Shown: positions 17,162-28,585 of the stretch, piece by piece
Layout of the letters: every line of letters begins with the position of its first letter
How positions within the stretch are numbered: the first letter of the stretch is position 1
Source of the DNA: Tissierellia bacterium
GTDB taxonomy: Bacteria > Bacillota > Clostridia > Tissierellales > Tissierellaceae
Length of the DNA: 32,779 bases
Assembly: GCA_028708575.1 (NCBI GenBank)
Contig: JAQVYQ010000018.1
Location: forward strand, 1-32,779
Reading direction: 5' to 3'
Notes under the pieces: generated by a model
Database searches by the model: none
Told to the model about the DNA's origin: nothing
The model's input: only the letters and a program-made list of their open reading frames with translations
Made by a program: the position numbers and the translations under genes

Positions 17162-17249
17162 GGAGAGATGGTTGAGTTGGCTGAAGGCGCTCGCCTGGAA
17201 AGCGGGTAGGCGGGAAACCGTCTCGAGGGTTCGAATCCCTCTCTCTCCG
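17162..17249 (+). tRNA. tRNA-Ser(GGA)
   Basis: GGAGAGA acceptor pairs with TCTCTCC, long variable arm, anticodon loop CTGGAAA, GGTTCGAATCC T arm; encoded CCA at 17250-17252. Confidence 0.95.
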
Positions 17250-17264
17250 CCATTAGAAATTTTT

Positions 17265-17532
17265 GCCGTGCTAGATGGGGAGTTAGCGGCACCCTATAAC
17301 CTGCAATCCGCTATAGCAGGGTTGAAGTCCTAGTCTAGTCTCATCTATTGTGAGGCCTGCCCCAGATAAGTGGTGTTGAAGGTTGGGTCCTGCGCAACGG
17401 AAGCTCATGAACCTCGTCAGGTCCGGAAGGAAGCAGCGATAAGTGAGAAATTCCGTGTGCCGCAGATTCACCTGACCTGAGCTAACTGTTTGGGTAACGC
17501 TTGGAATAGACTGGCAAACCTAGGTGCACGGC
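17265..17532 (+). ncRNA. ffs: Signal recognition particle RNA (large Gram-positive type)
   Basis: Apical-domain signature GTCAGGTCCGGAAGGAAGCAGCGATAAGTGAG; complementary ends GCCGTGC...GCACGGC; about 268 nt. Confidence 0.95.
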
Positions 17533-25644: not shown

Positions 25645-25673
25645 TTTTTAATGTTTAAATTATATTTTCTGGG

Positions 25674-25679
25674 TATAAT
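25674..25679 (+). promoter_or_regulatory. Candidate -10 box of the large ncRNA
   Basis: TATAAT exact -10; -35 is weak. Confidence 0.5.
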
Positions 25680-25685
25680 ATAGAT

Positions 25686-26357
25686 ACAATAGTAAGTTAA
25701 TAGTTTAGCTAATTAATTTGCTATTGCAAACAATAGAATTGTTGCAGCTACTACCAGCCGCAAAATGTTAATACCAGTTAGTTTTTGAGATTAACACAGG
25801 GAGATTGCATAGAAAGCTAAAAAGTCTTGAGTATGTTAATCAAGCAAATGTATTTATTCTATGCATTGAAACTTTAGGTGAATTGGTTGTAAGTTTGTTT
25901 TAGAAGTATTTTAGTAAAGTCAGCAAAGCATCAAATTATTATAAGGTATTAAATGATGTGTAAGTGTCTTAAGAGACAAAGCTTTAAAGGTAATTAAGTA
26001 TCTTAAGAAAATAAATTCTAAAGGGTGGTTAAGTATACCAAGAAGCATAGTTTTAGAAGGATGTTTAAGTATCTCAAGAAGTTAGATTTAAGTATGTTCT
26101 AGGATCACTTTAGTAAGTGAAGTATAATTAAGGCAATGGATATAAGAGCTAGTTTCACATCTTAAATCTGAAATCTAAAATTTAATAGTTAAATTACAGC
26201 ATTAGAATAAAAAAACTAATCGATGTAATTTAAAAGGAGTGTAGAGTATTTGATGGTGATAGAACCAGATAACTGTAGTTGGAGTAGCTGTAAACAATTC
26301 TATTTTAAATGAAGGGTAATTTTCTAAGAAGTATTGAGAAATTACCCTTCAATTTTT
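25686..26357 (+). ncRNA. Large structured non-coding RNA, family unassigned
   Basis: No ORF in the track. Closing helix AATAGAATTGTTGCAGCTACT (25732-25752) / AGTAGCTGTAAACAATTCTATT (26283-26304). Nested helices TGCATAGAA/TTCTATGCA, CTTGA/TCAAG, GTTAAT/ATTAAC, AAATTAC+ATTAG/CTAAT+GTAATTT, TGAAACT(tt)AG/CTAGTTTCA, CACTT/AAGTG; ends at an intrinsic terminator. Confidence 0.75.
25961..26103 (+). repeat. Degenerate ~35-nt tandem repeats inside the ncRNA
   Basis: TAAGT(A/G)T-starting units at 25961, 25995, 26030, 26066 and a shorter one at 26089; consensus TAAGTATCTTAAGAA...TTTTAAAGG. Confidence 0.65.
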
Positions 26358-26358
26358 T
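26311..26358 (+). terminator. Intrinsic terminator of the large ncRNA
   Basis: GAAGGGTAATTT ... AAATTACCCTTC perfect 12-bp stem followed by AATTTTTTT. Confidence 0.9.
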
Positions 26359-26447
26359 TGTAATTATTGTATTATCTAATCTTCAGTTATATAATGAATA
26401 TAAGCAAATTAGTATGACTTAACTTATTTAGACAAAGGAGCATTGTA

Positions 26448-28106: not shown

Positions 28107-28499
28107 TCATCGAACTCGATACCATGTGCCTGTTGTCTTATCTTTTTTCAAAGACAACTTATACCCACTGTCCCCGTGATAGACATATATTTCTGTGTCT
28201 TCTGGACTAAGCCTTAGGGTGTACTCACTTTTGGCGCCTAATGAGCTGTTGAGGCCTCCCCATGCAGAATAGAATTTCAAATAGTGCGGGTATATCCCGC
28301 CGCCTTCATCCTTGTATCCTCTTATGAATCCCATTGATGAACCGACACCTGTATGAAAAGTGATTTCACTGCCATCTTCAGCCACAGTAAAGTCGTCTGT
28401 AATATAGGCGCTTGTTTGTACTGAAAAACCCGTTGCAATCATCCACGATGTAATGACAAACAGTAAGCACACTACCCCAAATAATATCTTCTTTTTCAC
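28107..28499 (-). CDS. Orphan secreted/membrane-anchored protein of unknown function
   Basis: N-terminal hydrophobic segment KKKILFGVVCLLFVITSWMIATGF; GTG start proposed after AGAGGTG RBS (ORF track start 28517). Confidence 0.6.
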   Translation of the reverse strand: MKKKILFGVVCLLFVITSWMIATGFSVQTSAYITDDFTVAEDGSEITFHTGVGSSMGFIRGYKDEGGGIYPHYLKFYSAWGGLNSSLGAKSEYTLRLSPEDTEIYVYHGDSGYKLSLKKDKTTGTWYRVR

Positions 28500-28585
28500 A
28501 TCGACACCTCTAAGCAAATTCTAATTTGTATGTTTCCTATTATCTAAATTATCTTCATCTAGTTACTTTATCATACGAAATGGAA

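Follow-up and report, generated by a model that had tools for sequence, protein, structure and literature searches.

In the 32,779-nt stretch of Tissierellia DNA that we analysed (the window), feoB and a small winged-helix gene, whose position and length are FeoC-like, are followed by an interval (25686–26357) and then by pncB. It had been suggested from the sequence that this interval is free of ORFs and specifies a large, ornate, structured noncoding RNA, a member or new relative of the class to which the OLE, ROOL and GOLLD RNAs belong. Does the interval encode an RNA of that kind, a leader of pncB, or a message? Its features are collected in Table 1.

Distribution and genomic context

A DNA search placed the element between feoB–feoC and pncB in relatives as well. 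Covariance models R1 and then R2 (the 3′ domain of the element) matched 38 and 42, respectively, of 250 genomes of the window's order. In the window's family, covariance-model searches detected the element in 21 of the 28 genomes, and in a second order of Clostridia in 29 of 200; not every one of the weakest matches was read, and some of them will have arisen by chance. Seven genomes of the window's family yielded no convincing copy, and four of these seven were less than 90% complete. Exact DNA patterns of the element had no match in genome and viral contig collections, from which records near the window were possibly left out.

The element adjoined pncB in families f1, f16 and f17 and in one f12 member, and lay away from it in f4, f13, f18 and f87 and as a second copy in genome G025. 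Among the more distant genomes, many had the element away from pncB. One locus (L065) was among flagellar genes, another (L074) was near ahpC, and five more (L109, L111, L112, L118 and L119) occupied other settings not beside pncB. Because its contexts vary and are often away from pncB, the element is a free-standing gene. The second RNA gene copy in G025 sits beside parA and parB (L115, G025:C20:8300–11800). Elsewhere in the window, a large bacterial SRP RNA was found at 17266–17531, closely preceded by a tRNA gene (17162–17249), and a 136-aa ORF on the minus strand (28107–28517), with a hydrophobic, signal-like N-terminus, lies between pncB and a tRNA gene.

Table 1. Features of the element in the window, with positions counted from the first nucleotide of the window.
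Feature	Position	Strand	Details
Promoter	25653–25679	+	GTTTAA 25653–25658, 12 nt, GGGTATAAT 25671–25679
5′ hairpin	25686–25726	+	ACAATAGTAAGTTAAT / ATTAATTTGCTATTG; inverted repeat I9; at inferred transcript start
P1, 5′ strand	25732–25758	+	AATAGAATTGTTGCAGCTACTACCAGC; partner 26278–26304; covariation, 36 homologues
Variable interior	25759–26189	+	approximately 9% C in the window's genome
Hairpin just 5′ of ribosome-binding site	26190–26233	+	AAATTACA...TGTAATTT; predicted
AAGGAG, Shine-Dalgarno-like	26234–26239	+	outside P1
Short ORF	26250–26312	+	TTG 26250 or ATG 26253; TGA 26310–26312; (M)MVIEPDNCSWSSCKQFYFK
P1, 3′ strand	26278–26304	+	within short ORF; covariation
Intrinsic terminator	26307–26359	+	inverted repeat I2; stop codon at stem base

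The end-to-end helix P1 and the interior

The original prediction described a long-range helix between the two ends of the interval (25732–25752 with 26283–26304) enclosing 573 nt. This helix, P1, is present and runs five pairs further inward (25754–25758 CCAGC with 26278–26282 GTTGG); the 573 nt is its outer span, and approximately 530 nt are enclosed. In an alignment of 36 homologues covering 21 pairs, 91.9% of cells were paired, v no more than 49.2% with the partner strand slid by 1–3 columns. Seventeen of the 21 pairs were altered on both sides, and two-sided cells numbered 96 v a mean of 29 in shuffles and at most 37 in the slid versions; the alignment was built from predicted duplexes and so leans to the helix, but the two-sided changes were still far above the slid controls. 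Duplex prediction recovered P1 in nearly all loci (the exception was L113), and P1 was seen in 15 of 15 further loci checked in another order of Clostridia. Covariation on the end-to-end helix is very strong, and P1, strongly supported on this comparative evidence, is the best-supported feature of the element. The strong intrinsic terminator that had been proposed was also found (stem 26307–26322/26339–26354, then a T run), and its stem pairing was preserved among homologues through two-sided changes.

Folded whole, the transcript (25686–26357) had a z of −11.3 against 20 shuffles, because P1, the 5′ hairpin (region 25682–25760, folding z −3.1) and the terminator supply stability; 25757–26240 folded alone was hardly above shuffled sequence (z −1.6). 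Interior length ranged from 124 to 558 nt among the homologues measured, z was approximately 0 in several homologues and clearly negative in L056, L062 and L118, and the homologue family showed no sequence or fold conserved in the interior. In most homologues tested, as in the window, interior stability did not exceed chance. The window's interior carries a 30–35-nt direct repeat at approximately 25961–26081 (repeat families D1 and D2), and in some members the interior consists of tandem repeats. The interior is C-poor.

The small nested helices that had been listed exist as sequence in the window, but most are local to its genome. Much of 25832–25866 is deleted in the closest relative, G002, where the 25867–25877/26149–26157 pairing is broken and a CACTT/AAGTG hairpin and the hairpin at 26190–26233 are kept. 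The latter is kept in G002 and G003 with its upper stem altered, at genus level only; the four-sequence genus alignment A4 was used with all rows except G001. An interior that varies in length and is neither conserved nor unusually stable beyond P1, the local hairpin and the terminator does not merit the description ornate. The L118 interior (genome G555), approximately 435 nt long, holds about 20 head-to-tail 17-nt units (GTAAGTTAGTAGTAAAA) with less than 1% C. Two weak relatives, L137 and L142 (family f94), have interiors of the simple repeats GTAAAGAA and GAGTAGTACC and differ in their peptide, which has FYFV at its end; P1 was detected in L137.

The short ORF and the promoter

The interval is not ORF-free: after AAGGAG comes a short ORF that includes the 3′ strand of P1 and has its stop codon at the terminator base. 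The AAGGAG columns were invariant or nearly so in the alignments, and the reading frame relative to AAGGAG varied between members. Between AAGGAG and the Trp codon, 29 homologues had 7 stops in the ORF frame v 63 and 55 in the others, a contrast that conserved nucleotides explain in part. The ORF stop position was constant across homologues, with TGA, TAA and TAG all occurring there. The second order of Clostridia has a clear peptide of approximately 22 aa, with the motif M-x(3-7)-[N/D/S]-P-P-K-x(3-6)-[D/G]-W-[Y/H]-[S/N]-Y-F-R-F-Y-Y, and gaps in the K-to-W spacing of PPK-type peptides were whole codons, in frame. Pairwise counts over the PPK codons gave 143 silent v 6 non-silent changes (expected silent, 33%), a test partly biased by the use of the PPK motif for aligning. 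Judged by these codon patterns, the ORF is real in the homologue family at large.

The peptide has drifted in the window's own family, to [V/I]-E-P-K...W (VIEPK..CWSSC..FYFK), and the silent/replacement ratio of the ORF there is near neutral. Several members (L054, L070, L071, L108, L115 and others) were without ATG, GTG or TTG at the usual spacing, and the AAGGAG-to-start spacing was often 12–14, long for good translation. Family f13 (L109, L111) keeps the PPK part and reads the P1 strand in another frame, and the C-terminal residues are therefore dispensable for the gene. Translation of the ORF in the window itself is probable, not proven. Conservation of a reading frame across homologues had been named beforehand as evidence against a noncoding RNA; such conservation was largely found, so the RNA is probably not noncoding. 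It probably encodes a protein of approximately 20 aa at its 3′ end. By inspection, the C-terminal half of the peptides is aromatic and basic, and the predicted peptide does not resemble a toxin that spans the membrane.

No peptide family was matched in Pfam or NCBIfam even at E = 10, nor was there a match in PHROGs or PDB even at E = 1, and no mention of the peptide turned up in the openly available papers that were searched. Phages and plasmids searched for the peptide gave nothing relevant. A peptide profile run against 399 genomes of the phylum returned seven near-threshold matches; in the four that were read, neither a small ORF nor a terminator nor P1 was present, and these were taken as chance. 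At gathering thresholds, Rfam matched neither the interval nor any of six homologous loci, and permissive thresholds added chance matches only. By these searches, the RNA and its candidate peptide are undescribed, lying outside Rfam, Pfam and NCBIfam.

The TATAAT reported upstream of the interval is present (25674–25679), in a promoter that fits the sigma-B pattern and also contains this sigma-A −10 box. The motif GTTTA-N-GGTATA was found within 700 nt upstream, in the sense direction, at 30 of 55 homologous loci and not once in 317 kb of surrounding background sequence; it occurs once in the window, both strands counted (25653–25676). The consensus of C. difficile sigma-B promoters is WGWTT-N13-17-(G/T)GGTWA (PMC7494833). 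Likeness to these lies in GTTT...GGTATA with similar spacing and in the rsbV-rsbW-sigB operon of the window's genome (contig C22), whereas here a sigma-A −10 box overlaps and sigma-B dependence is putative (PMC7494833). The sigma factor of that operon did not reach the curated SigB cut-off.

About half of the homologous loci were without the strict sigma-B motif, some having plain sigma-A promoters, and some members had a sigma-A promoter directly before P1, instead of or besides the GGTATA type. The 5′ hairpin accompanies the GGGTATAAT promoter in members and is missing where a second promoter abuts P1. Two genomes, G016 (no close sigma-B) and G235 (no sigma-B), had a promoter decayed to GGATAT and a plain sigma-A promoter, respectively; several genomes with sigma-B were also without the motif, and the incomplete genome G232 had the motif and no close sigma-B. 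From the motif and its distribution, sigma-B probably drives the RNA gene. Tandem promoters lie 5′ of P1 in L046 and L047, the GGGTATAAT type and then a sigma-A-type TTGACT-N17-TATAAT that abuts P1 inside the 5′ leader; the strict sigma-B motif is in L047 only.

Candidate function and known systems

We consider it reasonably probable that the element is a free-standing gene for a small protein, whose transcript is folded back and closed by a 5′–3′ lock; the RNA is probably driven by sigma-B and possibly dual-function. RNA polymerase with sigma-B, besides or instead of sigma-A, would start at approximately 25686 and stop near 26359. P1 would then join the 5′ end to the 3′ half of the short ORF, as the covariation supports, with a loose, expandable, C-poor loop left between the strands. 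Because the ribosome-binding site and the first codons lie outside P1 (AAGGAG precedes the P1 strand by 38 nt), a ribosome could start, and it would have to unwind P1 on its way to the stop codon at the terminator base. With both ends buried, the RNA should be stable and long-lived. P1 may slow or gate translation, keeping peptide output low or conditional, and the peptide, presumably made under stress, might act in the stress response. A further elaboration, which we regard as doubtful, is a dual-function stress RNA in which only translation would open the lock formed by the 5′ strand and the ORF body, and the expandable C-poor repeat loop would offer an RNA-binding protein a landing array, making the molecule both a regulated microprotein message and a sponge.

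The element might instead be a structured noncoding RNA, whose working parts are P1 and an unknown partner and whose ORF, in the window's family, is incidental or a relict. That P1 is the best-supported feature would fit, as would the near-neutral ORF of that family, the start codons missing in some members and the frame in which f13 reads the P1 strand; however, a peptide that is clearly conserved in the sister order, an ORF frame nearly stop-free throughout and the lack of conserved interior structure make this unlikely. A type I toxin-like mRNA, with a harmful peptide and an RNA kept inert by end pairing until processed, as in hok/aapA, seems to us distinctly improbable. Its plan does match in the small ORF, the stable long-distance 5′–3′ pairing and the element's own promoter and terminator (PMC6733600), but P1 covers the ORF body and not the Shine-Dalgarno sequence, the predicted peptide is aromatic and basic with no hydrophobic membrane-spanning helix, and a non-exhaustive search identified no antitoxin.

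Attenuation of pncB, in which a ribosome that stalls at the stop codon blocks the terminator and transcription enters pncB, would account for the position of the RNA just upstream of pncB both in the window and in most members of its family, and for the overlap of the stop codon with the terminator stem. Against it, pncB has its own sigma-A-like promoter 3′ of the terminator (26367–26395; TTGTAT 26367–26372, 17 nt, TATAAT 26390–26395), and the RNA is not beside pncB in the four families f4, f13, f18 and f87. We rejected this explanation, to which we give very little credence, because the RNA gene is free-standing elsewhere and its position upstream of pncB is not constant. If the reading as a small-protein gene with a folded-back transcript is true, at least two orders of Clostridia have an RNA and microprotein family that was previously undescribed, and in anaerobes, whose sigma-B regulon is poorly known, this stress response may include a conserved small member.

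Among known designs, type I toxin messages with long-distance pairing (PMC6733600) and dual-function RNAs come closest, but in the element the pairing falls on another part of the message. RNAIII of Staphylococcus is a dual-function RNA of approximately 500 nt that encodes a peptide of approximately 26 aa, has paired ends, is under a regulatory switch and targets mRNAs through conserved internal hairpins. The element resembles it as a putative peptide-encoding RNA of similar plan with paired ends, and differs in that no conserved interior with mRNA-targeting hairpins was seen and no relation in sequence was detected. OLE, ROOL and GOLLD RNAs are likewise several hundred nucleotides long with long-range pairing, but they have extensive covarying interiors (PMC12286853), and their Rfam models gave no match to the element. 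Covariance models of OLE, ROOL, GOLLD, HEARO and raiA gave no match up to E = 10, and the large conserved interior structure characteristic of these RNAs was absent, given the interior z and length range above. The original prediction of a structured RNA class thus survives in part, as a discrete, conserved, structured RNA gene that is none of these five, is not ornate and is probably not noncoding.

In hok and aapA mRNAs, it is the ribosome-binding site that the pairing hides, and the encoded toxin is hydrophobic (PMC6733600). The element shares with them a short ORF, a predicted stable RNA, its own promoter and terminator and, through P1, long-distance 5′–3′ pairing (PMC6733600). It differs in that no antisense RNA is known for it, its AAGGAG is unpaired in the predicted fold, and its pairing spans the 3′ half of the ORF and leaves the ribosome-binding site free, with a long and variable loop (PMC6733600). 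A 5′ end that locks the coding sequence, and not the ribosome-binding site, would be an unusual fold for a message.
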